Shown here one piece after another: positions 2,492 to 30,009 of a stretch of 64,000 nucleotides of DNA. Position numbers and translations under genes: made by a program. Position 1 is the first letter of the stretch. Each line of letters opens with the position of its first letter. The DNA is taken from NCBI RefSeq assembly GCF_026151205.1, contig NC_087077.1, positions 11,878,983 to 11,942,982 of the forward strand, in the 5' to 3' direction. The notes below the pieces were generated by a model. That model ran no database searches. It was not told the DNA's origin and saw only the letters and a list, made by a program, of their open reading frames with translations. This DNA is from Bolinopsis microptera (taxonomy: Eukaryota; Ctenophora; Tentaculata; Lobata; Bolinopsidae).

Positions 2492-3098
2492 TATTTCTTA
2501 TTCCTGTCATCTTCAACATTGAATTAGAATGTTTTGAACTTAAATGTACCTGCTGAACTACTTTCGATGAGTCTTAATGCCTGGAAAACAATAAAGGGGA
2601 TATAATCGTACAGGGGGTAAATAGTGTTGTGAATAAAAGGGCGACGGTAATGCTTGCCAGCATTGTGATATATACTTCACGACAATCTGTTGTAAAACAG
2701 GGGTTCCAGAAAACCCACTTCCCGATACTCCTGAAACATGAAATTTTTTTTACAGTCGATTTGGACAAGGTCTAGACGCCCTGCAAAGTTTCATATCTCT
2801 AACTCAATTTTAACATGGTTTTTAAGGCACCTGAATATGGCGATTTTGGGTTTTTTACCTAATTTCGTATAACATGCTGGCGCGTATTTTGCGCAAATTT
2901 CTTAAAAACCTCCACATAACTATTTCTTATTCCTGTCATCTTTAACATTGAATTAGAATGTTTTGAACTTAAATATGCCTGCTGAACTACTTTCGATGAG
3001 TCTTAATGCCTGGAAAACAATAAAGGGGATATACTAGTATAGGGGGTAAATAGTATTGTGAATATAAGGGCGACGGTAATGCTTGCCAGCATTGTGAT
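2492..3098. repeat. 178-bp direct repeat pair (2492-2669 and 2921-3098)
   Basis: Two copies at a constant offset of 429 bases with only scattered substitutions. Each begins TATTTCTTATTCCTGTCATC and ends GCTTGCCAGCATTGTGAT. The first copy starts at the TA that closes transposon copy A. About 250 bases of other sequence separate them. No coding content recognised. Confidence 0.9.
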
Positions 3099-23803: not shown

Positions 23804-26800
23804 ATGCAGAAGCTGATGTTAACGTGGTTACCATGGTTACTGACTCTACTAGTTCTACAAGTTGACTCTGTCACCCAACCCAACATTGTCATGATGGTCG
23901 CTGATGATCTAGGTTCGTTGAACAAATATAAATAGTATACACATTATAGTTTATATTCACAACAACTTTAGAACTAACTCACACCTTATCAAAATTTTCC
24001 AATAATATATACGGATGCTTTTAACTTTAAGTACACATTGATATTACAATCGCTTTATTTAAAGTAACTGTCACCCCCAGGCTGGGCGGATGTGCCATGG
24101 CACGATGCTCTTACGATTGCCCCGACCCTGTCCTCACTGGCAGATACAGGGATAATACTGGACAGGCACTATGTTCAGCCCATCTGCTCACCTACAAGAT
24201 CTGCGCTCATGACAGGGAAATATCCCAGCAGACTGGGACTTAACCATGATACCATCAACGCCGTGAGTTAAGGGAGATATAGCAGCACAGAGGATGTTCT
24301 ACAAACAAAACTAGGCCGAAACCGGGGAAAAGGAGTCCAAGGAACCGTTTTTTGTAAAAAAATGATTACTTTTAGATAATATTTAAAATTTCAGGGAGAA
24401 CCGTACGGTCTGATGGTGAACGAGACAATAATCTCCAACTACATGAGCGAGTTAGGATACTCTACTCACGCAGTGGGAAAGTGGCATCTGGGTTACTGTT
24501 CCTGGGACTTGACTCCTGCTAAGAGAGGGTTCGATTCGTTTTACGGCTACTACAACGGACACGAAACTTACTATACTAAAGTCACTCACAAGTTCTTTGA
24601 TTTCAGGTGAGTTTAACGTTGAGGTAATATACCGTTGTTGATTTGTTGATATATATCAGGTTTTCGACGAATAGCATCTTTAGCACGCATTAAACGAAAG
24701 TGTTCGTTGTGATGATTCCCCGATTTAATCCCGATGTTGTGTGGTCTACATCATTTGATCAAGATATAACGCATATTTCCAATTCCAAGTTTATGATATA
24801 GCTGTGATCAAGGCTTCTAGAACGTCTTATTTCCTCCCAGGTTGGACACCCGAGCGGTACACTCAATCAATATTCCTCCCAGGTTGGACACTCAAGCAGA
24901 TGACGGATCCGTAAACAGTGAAGTTGTCTGGAAGGCTAATGGCACTTACTCTACCGAGCTTTACGCTGACCGAGCTGCGCAGGTTTAAATGAAAACTGAT
25001 TAAAAACATAAAATATTTAATGTTTTAAAATATCCAAGTTTTAAAACTTTTCATTTCAACATTGACTTGAATAACATATATTTTAAATATACAACAATAT
25101 CTGTATGATATCTGATGATAAATTGTAGTCATTACACAATAACTCTACTCTTACAGATAATCAAATATCACAATCCATCCCAACCTCTGTTTCTGTATTA
25201 TCCCATGCAAAGCGTCCATTTCCCCAACGAGGTCCCTGAAAAGTACCTTAAGGTAAGCAATAATCCCTCAAATTGCATTGAAAATTCCCAAAACTCAGAT
25301 AATATTGCACTTGCAGGTTATAGAGAAACACGATCAGAGCAAGCCTCTGTTCATGTACCTACCATTTCAAAGTGTCCACAACCCAAACGAAGTGCCTGAT
25401 AGTTATTACCAGGTTTCTGCATGGTCAACATGTCACATGTCACATGTTATCAGCTCGTCTATTGGAATTTGTGCTGTAATTTGTAATTGGTAATTTGTAA
25501 TTGGTAATTTGTAATTGGTAATTTGTCAGTACTGTGTTATTGTGGTAATTGTGGTAATTGTAGCGAATGATCGAGTGACGCCCACTCCTCGAATGGTAGG
25601 TAGCCTTCAAACAGACTTTTCTTCAAACTGCGCTGTTCAGGTTCCCCCACTTTTAGCTTTCGCATATGCTTGGCATGATTCTTTCCCTTGCTGTAGACGT
25701 AGTTACAGTGGATAAGGCGACTGTTTAAAGTTGAATGACAAGTGATATTTGATGTCAGTTTTTTGAAGTTATTTATTGGCCCTAATTCTTCTGGCCCTAA
25801 TTCTTCTGGATGGACGTATCATGGACCATTCAATACATATTTGTCCTGTTCTTGCTTTTTAAAATTTAATGAATCTTAGATTATAAATATACCTGTATGG
25901 AAAATGAATGTGATTAAAAATTGAAATAAAAATGGTTTTGAAGGTATTTAATCGCACGGCTGGCCTCCCAGAGCCATCACATGATTATCGCATCGTAGGT
26001 CGAACATGGCATGTGAAATACATAATCAATTTAACACTTATAAGTTTTTAAAACAAATACAGCGAATTATAGAATTAAAACTGTCATCAAATACATGAAA
26101 TAATGTTGCAGATGTACGAGGGGATAGTGGAGAACGAGAAAAGGAGAACACTGCTCGCAATGGTGACTGCTATGGATGATGCTGCTGAGGTGAATTTTTA
26201 TGTTCTTAAATTAAAATGCTTATTTTGAAAGTAAGTTAATTTGTTTACTAAATTTTGTAATATGTGATCAGAAAACTATGAAAATGATATGGTTATTTGC
26301 TGAAATTATTTAATAAACTTTAACTTTGCAGGTAGTAGTAACGGCTCTAAAACAGTCTGGAATGTGGGAAAATACTGTCTTTATCTTCTTCAGCGACAAC
26401 GGAGGACCACTCGAGGGAATAGGAAATGGCCAGGTTAGTAGTTAACCTATAAAATAAGAAATGTATAATGTATAATGTATAATGTATAACAAATGGGGGA
26501 CAGGCACGTAGCCAGGATTTATCTTTGTGTACGCTGTTCACTGTTATGTAGTTGGTAAATGTAAAACAAACTTTTTTGATCAGCCTCGCGCTGAACCAGT
26601 GTTGCAAAGTAAAAATTGTGTATTTTTTGTACATTTTTGTGTGTAAATTAATTTATTAATTTATCACTTGTACACATATTATCACAAATTATTTTATTAT
26701 AATAAAACCACTTCTGTGAAATTGTGATTTTGACTTAAAATACTTAAACTAAATATCAAATAATTGTGGGTATAAATAAAATTTTATATAGGGTGTTTTA

Positions 26801-29800
26801 GACTACATTTGGCATTAAAGAATTTTGTAGGACAGCAATAAACTGGGACTGAAAAGAATCAAGTACTCACGTAAATTTGGTAACTTCACAAGAGCAATCT
26901 GCATTCTCCAATCAGAATTTACGACTTACTCAGGCCTCATTGTCTTGATAATTTGACGATTTTGAAGATTTTGACGATTTTGAAGTCAATTGCCTACCGT
27001 TTCAACAGTACAGACTGCAGTCATAAACACAGCCCAGTTACCTGGCCCCCCCTCCCTTGGCTACGTGCCTGATGGGCTGGGACCATCAGTCGTTGGGTGT
27101 TGAGCTTGACAGTACAATATTTCTGGACGAAGAAGATATTATGTGTTTGTAGGAAATTAAAAATAATGTAGTCCTGATCGAAGATCGAAGATGGTAGAAT
27201 AATAATTGATCCGTTTACAAGAGGCCCCAATCACAGATTATGGTTGACGATATAAACATATAAATATAAAACTTTTTGGTAAATTTGTGCTATACAGCTA
27301 AAATCATGAGCAACAACTTGAGAAGCTTGTAACATGACAATAAAATTAATTCAGGTAAACTACCCACTAAGGGGAGGTAAATATTCGTACTGGGAAGGTG
27401 GAATCAGATCTAGCTCCTTCATCCACTCTCCCATGCTACCAGGTAATTAATATATACAGCTCGTTTATCTGTATACCACCTGTATACCACCTGTATACCA
27501 CCTGTATACCACTTGTATACCACCTGTATAGTGTATACCACCTGTATAGTGTATACCACCTGTATACCACTTGTATACCGCCTGTATATCACCTGTATAC
27601 CACCTGTATACCACTTGTATACCACTTGTATACCACTTGTATACCACCTGTATACCACTTGTATACCACCTGTATAGTGTATACCACCTGTATAGTGTAT
27701 ACCACCTGTATATCACCTGTATACCACCTGTATACCACTTGTATACCACCTGTATACCACTTGTATACCACTTGTATACCACTTGTATACCACTTGTATA
27801 CCACCTGTATACCACTTGTATACCACCTGTATACCACTTGTATACCACCTGTATACCTGTATACCACTTGTATACCACCTGTATACCACTTGTATACCAC
27901 TTGTATACCACTTGTATACCACTTGTATACCACCTGTATACCACCTGTATAGTGTATACCACTTGTATACCACTTGTATACCACAGATAGAGCTGTATGC
28001 CGTGAAATCTATTCGAACCTTACTTCTACGGGGTCCGGAATTTCATCTATTTCCAGTGTCAGAAATGTACAATCTCCCTAAAATACCTAAACTTTTTAAT
28101 GTGCTCAGGTGGAGTGATTAACCAAGAGCTGCTCCATGTAACGGATTGGTTACCCACTCTTGGGCACTTGGCAGCTTGTGGTGTTGAACCCAACGATCAA
28201 TGTACAGGTTAGTTAAGTTTGGTGAAAACTGTTAACAAGATTTTGTATCTAGTGTTTATATTGGCCGAGATTATGTAACTTGTATCGATAGTAATTAAAA
28301 CTTGGGAATCACGGAACACCATACCAGCACCTCCACTTTCAGGGCCCGATATGGGAGACATTGATGGAGTTAACCAGTGGAACGCTATAGTTGGGGCGGG
28401 AAAGAGTAACCGGACAGAGTTTCTTGTTAACATCGACCCAAAGGCTAAGAACTCTGCTCTAAGATGGGGACCCTGGAAGCTTTACCATGGTCTGTAGTGT
28501 TTTATAAAGTAATTAGCAAACCCGTGGTCACAGTACAGGGAGGAAGCTAATACTAATAGTATTCTTTGGTAGTCAGTTTTTATTGCATCAAAAAATATCC
28601 TACACAACCGAAGATACAGCCGATTAAAATGTTGCTGGCACTAAACACAAGTGCAACGTAATATCAACAAAACCGATAAAAATGCCGTTCTAACAATCTT
28701 TGCACGTGCACGTGCGTGTAACAACCTTCGTTCTTTTTACCTTATTTGCACGTGGGCGGTCGTACATACATTATACATTAAACAGACAGACAAACATAGT
28801 CTTTCGAATTATAAGTATGATTACATTCGATAATTAAAGCACAATTTACGCTTTACGAATTTCATCGCAACTTTTAATCCAGATGTAGTAAAAAGTTTGT
28901 GACTAATTCTCCTCGTCACATAATCTACTATCTAATACATAATATACAAGCTAATATTACCGTGTCTCGTAACTCCTTTATCATAGGTAACCCCGGTAAA
29001 GGTGACTGGGTACCACCACCCAGCGTAAACGAACATCGCTACAACCAGCAGTTTACACATGGACTGAGGGACAGGAACAAGTTCGAAACTGACCAGGAGT
29101 ATGTTTTCTCTGAGGGTATCTATAATCCAGACACGGTGAGTTATATCCGTATATGGTTACTATAGTAACTGAGTTTTATTTGATAAACAGATGAGAACTT
29201 ATCAAAAGAAGCGGTTTTTTAGTGCTCATAGGGACATAGGTATTTCGAAGTATTCATCCATCCTCGAGTGACTTCAAATGACCATTATACTTATAGTTGA
29301 TATGTGGATGACATATTTTTGTACGAAAGCCTTCCTATTCGAATATTCAGATCATGTTGTTTGACGTTGAAGCAGACCCAGCAGAAACAAATGAAGTATC
29401 AAACGACAATCCCGACGTTGTGAACACAATGCTAGAAAGACTAGTCTACTATGAAAGCCGGGTAAGTGTTCGCGCAGATTATCTAAATACAGTATGATGA
29501 ATAATGAATATTATCAATTATCATACAGTCTTGGTTGGTATACCGTTGGTATACCGTTAAATCGATTTAACACCGCAATTCCAGTCGCAAGCCTGGGACC
29601 ACTACTAGCATTGTCACAACATCTACAAAGCTGCCATATAGCCTGACTGACAATTTTCTCGACTGACTGACAATGTTTCTTCTTTTCCCCATTTAGAATA
29701 CAAAGATTAGTACATTTTAGCTTATGATTAATATTATATTTTTACCTATAGTTTACCTAGATTGATACTATGTTAATGATAATGATTAACATACAGTGAC

Positions 29801-30009
29801 AATTGGAAATAATTCTTGACTATCAGTTAATCATTATCATTTGTATAGTAGCAATGATTAGTGTTTGCCGCCACAATATGACACTAAAGCATTTCATTCT
29901 GTAATCCAATTTTTTTCAGACAATTCCTCCAAGAAATTGTGTTAGAGACCCTGCCTCCGATCCTGCTCAATTTGGAGGAGTTTGGACTCCCTGGTTGAAA
30001 ACGTGCTAG
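23804..30009 (+). CDS. Arylsulfatase B-like sulfatase
   Basis: Exons: 23804-23912, 24081-24262, 24395-24606, 24883-24982 (or from 24841), 25157-25252 or 25317-25412, 26112-26189, 26332-26433, 27355-27442, 28109-28207, 28343-28489, 28987-29135, 29351-29461, 29920-30009. Phases agree throughout, giving about 520 residues with either middle exon (human ARSB has 533). A signal peptide ([12 protein letters not shown]) leads to Asp34-Asp35 (metal). Cys72 in [12 protein letters not shown] is the formylglycine site. GKWHLG supplies Lys126 and His128, QSVH His222, SDNGG Asp281-Asn282, and LRGGK Lys302. Every catalytic and calcium residue of the family is therefore present. [19 protein letters not shown] and [18 protein letters not shown] place it in the ARSB/ARSI/ARSJ group. 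Predicted role: lysosomal or secreted hydrolysis of sulfate esters on glycosaminoglycan-like polysaccharides. It needs a formylglycine-generating enzyme. Substrate is an inference. Confidence 0.93.
24832..24982 (+). other. Sulfatase exon 4 with two in-frame 3' splice sites
   Basis: The acceptor context TTCCTCCCAG followed by GTTGGACAC occurs twice, with exon starts at 24841 and 24883. The distance is 42 nt, so both choices keep the frame and differ by 14 residues ([14 protein letters not shown]). Family alignment from memory of ARSB favours the second acceptor. The first may add a loop between the catalytic GKWHLG region and the middle exon. Confidence 0.7.
25157..25252 (+). other. Sulfatase alternative exon 5a
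   Basis: Exactly 96 nt, phase 0 at both ends, with a CTCTTACAG acceptor and a GTAAGC donor. It encodes 32 residues including [20 protein letters not shown], with the active-site histidine of QSVH. It is homologous along its whole length to the next exon, 64 nt downstream. Confidence 0.88.
25317..25412 (+). other. Sulfatase alternative exon 5b
   Basis: Also exactly 96 nt and phase 0, with a TTGCAG acceptor and a GTTTCT donor. It encodes 32 residues with [20 protein letters not shown]. The SKPLF form is closer to the human ARSB consensus; exon 5a has SQPLF. Including both exons would place two copies of an active-site strand in one chain, so the two are probably mutually exclusive. Confidence 0.88.
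25413..26111. other. Sulfatase intron with a GTAATTTGTAATTG repeat
   Basis: About 3.5 copies of the 14-bp unit GTAATTTGTAATTG at 25474-25530. It lies just downstream of exon 5b and could affect splicing or simply be a microsatellite. Nothing else recognised. Confidence 0.6.
27470..27986. repeat. 11-bp minisatellite in sulfatase intron 8
   Basis: About 47 units of TATACCACCTG and TATACCACTTG with occasional TATAGTG variants, starting 27 nt after the exon 8 donor at 27443. Because 11 is not a multiple of 3, all frames on both strands are open over long spans and give periodic pseudo-peptides. These are not genes. Every unit junction contains GTATAC, a palindrome. Confidence 0.95.

Follow-up and report, generated by a model that had tools for sequence, protein, structure and literature searches.

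Results

An ARSB-type sulfatase gene carries two versions of exon 5

We analyzed a window of 64,000 nucleotides from the genome of the ctenophore Bolinopsis microptera (C6:11878983-11942982) and searched the genome itself, which comprises 264,652,675 bases in 232 contigs. A sulfatase gene occupies positions 23804-30009 of the forward strand. With the tandem exons 5a and 5b taken separately it has 14 exons, and every one of its introns has GT-AG ends in the gene model. Its features are as follows, in window coordinates.

23804..23912, + strand, exon 1: start codon, N-terminal hydrophobic stretch, and ADDLG (gene model, PF00884 and 1fsu alignment)
24081..24262, + strand, exon 2: CSPTR formylglycine-type motif (gene model, 1fsu alignment)
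24395..24606, + strand, exon 3: GKWHLG (gene model, 1fsu alignment)
24883..24982, + strand, exon 4 (gene model); alternative in-frame acceptor at 24841
25157..25252, + strand, exon 5a: 96 nt, phase 0, QSVHF version
25253..25316, + strand, 5a-5b spacer: 64 nt, GT...AG
25317..25412, + strand, exon 5b: 96 nt, phase 0, QSVHN version
26112..26189, + strand, exon 6 (gene model)
26332..26433, + strand, exon 7: SDNGG (gene model)
27355..27442, + strand, exon 8 (gene model)
28109..28207, + strand, exon 9 (gene model)
28343..28489, + strand, exon 10 (gene model)
28987..29135, + strand, exon 11 (gene model)
29351..29461, + strand, exon 12 (gene model)
29920..30009, + strand, exon 13, stop codon included (the 14th if 5a and 5b are counted separately; gene model)

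The reading frame stays open with 5a or 5b (520 aa), with both (552 aa), and with neither (488 aa). The two forms with a single exon 5 matched the PF00884 Sulfatase profile with 169.9 and 171.0 bits (cut-off 25), and the search of NCBIfam gave no match above cut-off for the protein. The best match in the PDB was human ARSB, an N-acetylgalactosamine-4-sulfatase (1fsu, E 5.2e-103), with an alignment running almost end to end in which CSPTR, GKWHLG, and QSVH of both forms find their counterparts. We take CSPTR to be the formylglycine motif CxPxR, which together with the active-site histidines marks S1 sulfatases. The QSVH histidine presumably corresponds to His242 of human ARSB, its position being placed by the 1fsu alignment. 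Judged by its domain, motifs, and closest solved relative, the predicted product is an ARSB-type S1 sulfatase.

Exons 5a and 5b are identical at 18 of 32 residues and 58 of 96 nucleotides. Their BLOSUM62 score is 107, whereas 20,000 shuffles of one of the peptides averaged -23 and scored at most 36. In gap-free comparison with 1fsu, 5a is identical at 19 and 5b at 16 of the 32 residues, and 14 residues, QSVH among them, are common to all three. QSVH stands at positions 18 to 21, and the 14 differences between the two versions include positions 15, 17, and 22, which flank it. The first-pass annotation had proposed two adjacent, homologous 96-nt exons of phase 0 with QSVH in each, separated by 64 nt and differing beside the catalytic residues, all of which was borne out here.

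Both acceptors read CAG, and the donors read GTAAGC (5a) and GTTTCT (5b). The held-out donor scores of 5a and 5b, 5.64 and 6.36, are at the low end of the range for the gene (5.57 to 13.17), the scores of its other donors being flattered by training. The two exons thus show equal length, the same phase, matching splice sites, and homology; similar length, same phase, splice sites, and homology are used to predict mutually exclusive exons (PMC3228551).

We scanned the window on both strands for pairs of the form AG-exon-GT with equal length, a shared phase, and a score of at least 80. Four groups were found on the forward strand and seven on the reverse strand. The 5a/5b pair is one of them, and the other ten resemble minisatellite or repeat copies by their translations. 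The same scan of block-shuffled windows returned no pair in three of three. No third copy of exon 5 was detected by tblastn within the sulfatase gene.

On the minus strand of the window, two similar 94-nt stretches at 2559-2652 and 2988-3081, beginning LPSPLYSQYYLPP and LPSPFYSQHYLPP, are flanked by AG and GT and lie 335 nt apart. They are probably repeat copies.

Relatives in the genome have a single exon 5

Two close paralogs, P1 (L001) and P2 (L002), each have one 32-residue, phase-0 exon 5, and an intronless relative on C5 that is 59% identical has a single such segment. A single exon 5 therefore appears to be the usual state. Human ARSB (1fsu) likewise has one version of this piece where the sulfatase gene has two. 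The two exon peptides had 14 and 36 listed genome matches, from searches that score the best candidates only, and among these only the pair in the window lies less than 1 kb apart on the same strand. No relic of a second exon 5 scored above 18 bits by tblastn in P1 or P2.

P1 and P2 lie at C6:8.67-8.70 Mb, a few kilobases apart and in opposite orientation, and share about 94% identity across exon 5; they thus look like a recent inverted duplication. In P1, roughly 260 nt containing stops break into exon 3 (L001 1541-2052) some 20 residues from its beginning, whereas exon 3 of P2 is continuous. P1 may be damaged, or may have gained an intron-like insert. A fragment at C11:18319009-18319167 has sulfatase exons 1 and 2 adjoining with no intron between them, the state expected of a processed copy.

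The acceptor of exon 4 in the window gene is doubled by a 42-nt repeat (24831-24982), with TTCCTCCCAGGTTGGACAC at both 24831 and 24873. Splicing to the upstream acceptor, which starts the exon at 24841, would lengthen the protein by 14 residues and keep the frame. This acceptor is single in the stretches of P1 and P2 examined.

The exon pair looks old and constrained

Between 5a and 5b, the proportion of differences was 0.867 at silent sites (pS; 15.75 of 18.2) and 0.286 at replacement sites (pN; 22.25 of 77.8), a silent excess with a Fisher p of about 3e-6 on rounded counts. Divergence at the silent sites is close to saturation. We also simulated neutral evolution of 5b at 0.7 substitutions per site: only 0.06% of 5000 runs kept an open frame with QSVH, and none of the 5000 kept 18 identities. 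The silent excess and the simulation together argue that both exons have been kept by selection, and as a pair, the level at which the comparison gauges constraint, they look, from their codons, old and constrained.

Outside exon 5, the gene differs from P1 by pS 0.495 and pN 0.112 (316 codons) and from P2 by pS 0.523 and pN 0.110 (334 codons). A pS of 0.867 was reached in 8 (P1) and 16 (P2) of 5000 random samples of 32 codons, and in none of the contiguous windows (0/285 for P1, 0/303 for P2). As silent divergence is greater between 5a and 5b than between the gene and its paralogs, the duplication of exon 5 seems to predate the split from P1 and P2. This suggests a pair at least as old as the paralog split and probably older, with one copy lost in P1 and P2.

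Which copy the paralogs would have retained is answered differently by silent sites and by residues. Silent sites bring the paralogs nearer 5a (5a-P1 0.635, 5a-P2 0.717; 5b-P1 0.906, 5b-P2 0.796), whereas residues bring them nearer 5b (20 and 19 of 32, versus 16 and 18 for 5a). In trees of 5a, 5b, P1, P2, and the intronless relative, made from 32 codons with two codon models and HKY+G, three topologies were inseparable, all being in the 95% set. The protein sequence of exon 5 changes fast (pN 0.23-0.29, versus 0.11 elsewhere), and given this, a later duplication followed by fast change may also account for the pair.

The spacer is shorter than the introns sampled

We collected 47 inferred introns from genes of the myosin, TCP1, and SNF2 families. 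They were hand-picked from family searches, with inferred ends, some of them uncertain, and several poor scores; the sample covers pairs without wide profile gaps in the loci retrieved, apart from the myosin spacer described below. Their lengths run from 98 nt (with 125 and 131 nt as alternatives for this shortest intron) to 1484 nt, and none is 80 nt or less. The 12 other introns along the sulfatase gene measure 132-921 nt, eight introns of P1 165-1308 nt, and a single channel-gene intron, delimited by eye, about 134 nt. The 64-nt spacer is thus shorter than all 47 ordinary introns sampled in the genome. Introns of about 64 nt are spliced in flies, and the sulfatase spacer, with its canonical ends, might be spliced too.

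The spacer has canonical GT and AG ends, with a good-looking donor, GTAAGC, on the 5a side. Loose matches to YTNAN lie 18, 29, and 45 nt from this donor, and no strict YTNAY match was found within the spacer. In OGDH exons 4a/4b and in alpha-tropomyosin, exclusion arises because the branch point lies too close to the 5' splice site, with a threshold of about 50 nt (PMC7969005). The candidate adenines of the sulfatase spacer, if any of them is used, would give a short distance between 5' splice site and branch point. The cases differ in that OGDH and alpha-tropomyosin may have longer spacers and their branch points are mapped, whereas in the sulfatase the whole spacer is short and the candidate branch points are placed by a loose motif.

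A myosin gene offers an inexact parallel

Mutually exclusive exons, termed cluster-0, were predicted by Kollmar and co-workers in Mhc2 of another ctenophore, Mnemiopsis leidyi. These exons follow the P-loop, and the 3' exon encodes a loop-1 longer by nine residues (PMC3912159). In Bolinopsis we found a pair of the Mhc2 type, its orthology being judged from position and loop length.

C3:9154013-9154205 and 9154265-9154487, Mhc2-type exon pair: 193 and 223 nt, 59-nt spacer

The 3' exon of this pair is 10 residues longer. The sulfatase pair resembles Mnemiopsis Mhc2 in that a ctenophore gene has two predicted tandem homologous exons for a piece beside the active site, and the sulfatase and myosin pairs would both vary the rim of an active site. 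It differs in that Mhc2 is a myosin motor whose exons are unequal and are not multiples of three. At 193 and 223 nt, the two myosin exons would put the reading frame out if both were included, so that decay could help there and the parallel is inexact.

Both known tandem pairs, only two in number, have spacers (64 nt in the sulfatase, 59 nt in the myosin) well under the sampled introns. Joining of 5a to 5b had initially been described as perhaps sterically disfavored, and this view gains support from the intron census and the 59-nt myosin spacer. We tentatively raise the possibility of a ctenophore spacer rule, obeyed by the 64-nt and 59-nt pairs, against a lower limit near 100 nt for the introns sampled in the genome.

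How one exon would be chosen

A tandem duplication of exon 5, with 5a and 5b spliced as alternatives and used exclusively for a steric reason, is the best explanation of the locus and, as far as the gene sequence can tell, a probable one. Such a duplication, in the ARSB-type gene of a ctenophore, would have given two alternatives that supply the same 32-residue segment, each with the histidine of the catalytic site. The 64-nt spacer would be too short for the spliceosome of this ctenophore, so that 5a would not readily be joined to 5b. With one exon per mRNA, the gene would make two sulfatases whose 14 residue differences surround the histidine and which are probably adapted to distinct sulfated substrates or sites of expression. 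Exclusive splicing, its steric cause, and a difference in function between the 5a and 5b forms are what we infer, and the placement of the differing residues makes a change of substrate plausible. RNA-seq and Iso-Seq were used in annotating Bolinopsis (PMC10232365).

The alternative that survives best keeps 5a and 5b as exclusive choices and ascribes the exclusion to competing RNA pairing or to a regulator rather than to the short spacer. Such exclusion is known elsewhere, for instance in Dscam (PMC6071210 and PMC8042237). In this one species, we found no inter-intron pairing stronger than in shuffles among intron 4, the 5a-5b spacer, and the 5b-6 intron: the observed duplex energies were reached by 142, 96, and 48 of 200 shuffles. 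We consider this alternative unlikely as the cause of exclusion, even though a protein regulator of exon choice acting on top of steric exclusion is likely.

Constant inclusion of 5a together with 5b, which would produce a 552-aa sulfatase in which the 32-residue insert is duplicated, strikes us as quite improbable. In its favor, the frame is open with both exons, and the GT-AG ends of the spacer include a donor that looks good. Against this, no sampled intron is as short as the spacer, P1, P2, the intronless relative, and 1fsu all have a single segment, and the Pfam sulfatase match splits in two, although its sum is 176.5 bits versus 169.9 and 171.0 for the single-exon-5 forms. As 96 is 3 x 32 and the 552-aa double form is open, decay would not remove double inclusion; the exon length being a multiple of three, we found no frameshift route to decay.

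We give equally little credence to the idea that one exon is used and the other is a remnant that has yet to decay, which the single copy of the relatives and the low donor scores would allow and which the old, strongly silent-biased divergence, the two open frames, and the residues that both copies retain in common with 1fsu speak against. Finally, neither 5a nor 5b has a U12-type donor by reading against the U12 consensus, and both introns read as U2-like. With RNA pairing, U12 splicing, and frameshift clean-up unsupported, steric exclusion by the short spacer is left as the best explanation.

Tandem exons used in a mutually exclusive way are an established type of arrangement, the most familiar cases being ion channels, muscle proteins, and Dscam. 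The first-pass annotation knew of no such arrangement in ARSB-type genes. Our literature search, which covered few subscription papers, listed no report of mutually exclusive exons for any sulfatase. If the spacer rule is true, this sulfatase would be the first whose catalytic strand can be exchanged. Substrate choice by sulfatases could be followed cleanly, as a natural experiment, in an enzyme that exchanges the strand bearing its catalytic histidine. A ctenophore spacer rule would allow such exons to be found genome-wide in a simple, testable way, and would bear on the age of mutually exclusive splicing.

A repeat in a channel gene

A possible doublet of pore exons in a channel gene was rejected, as it is a near-identical 93-nt repeat. 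This potassium-channel-like gene (L049, minus strand, C2:22711600-22713400) has six near-identical 93-nt pore copies with TVGYGD. The copies may be a recent repeat, an array in an intron, or an effect of assembly. They form one open frame, and each ends in a GTAAGT-like donor, the last in GTTAGA.
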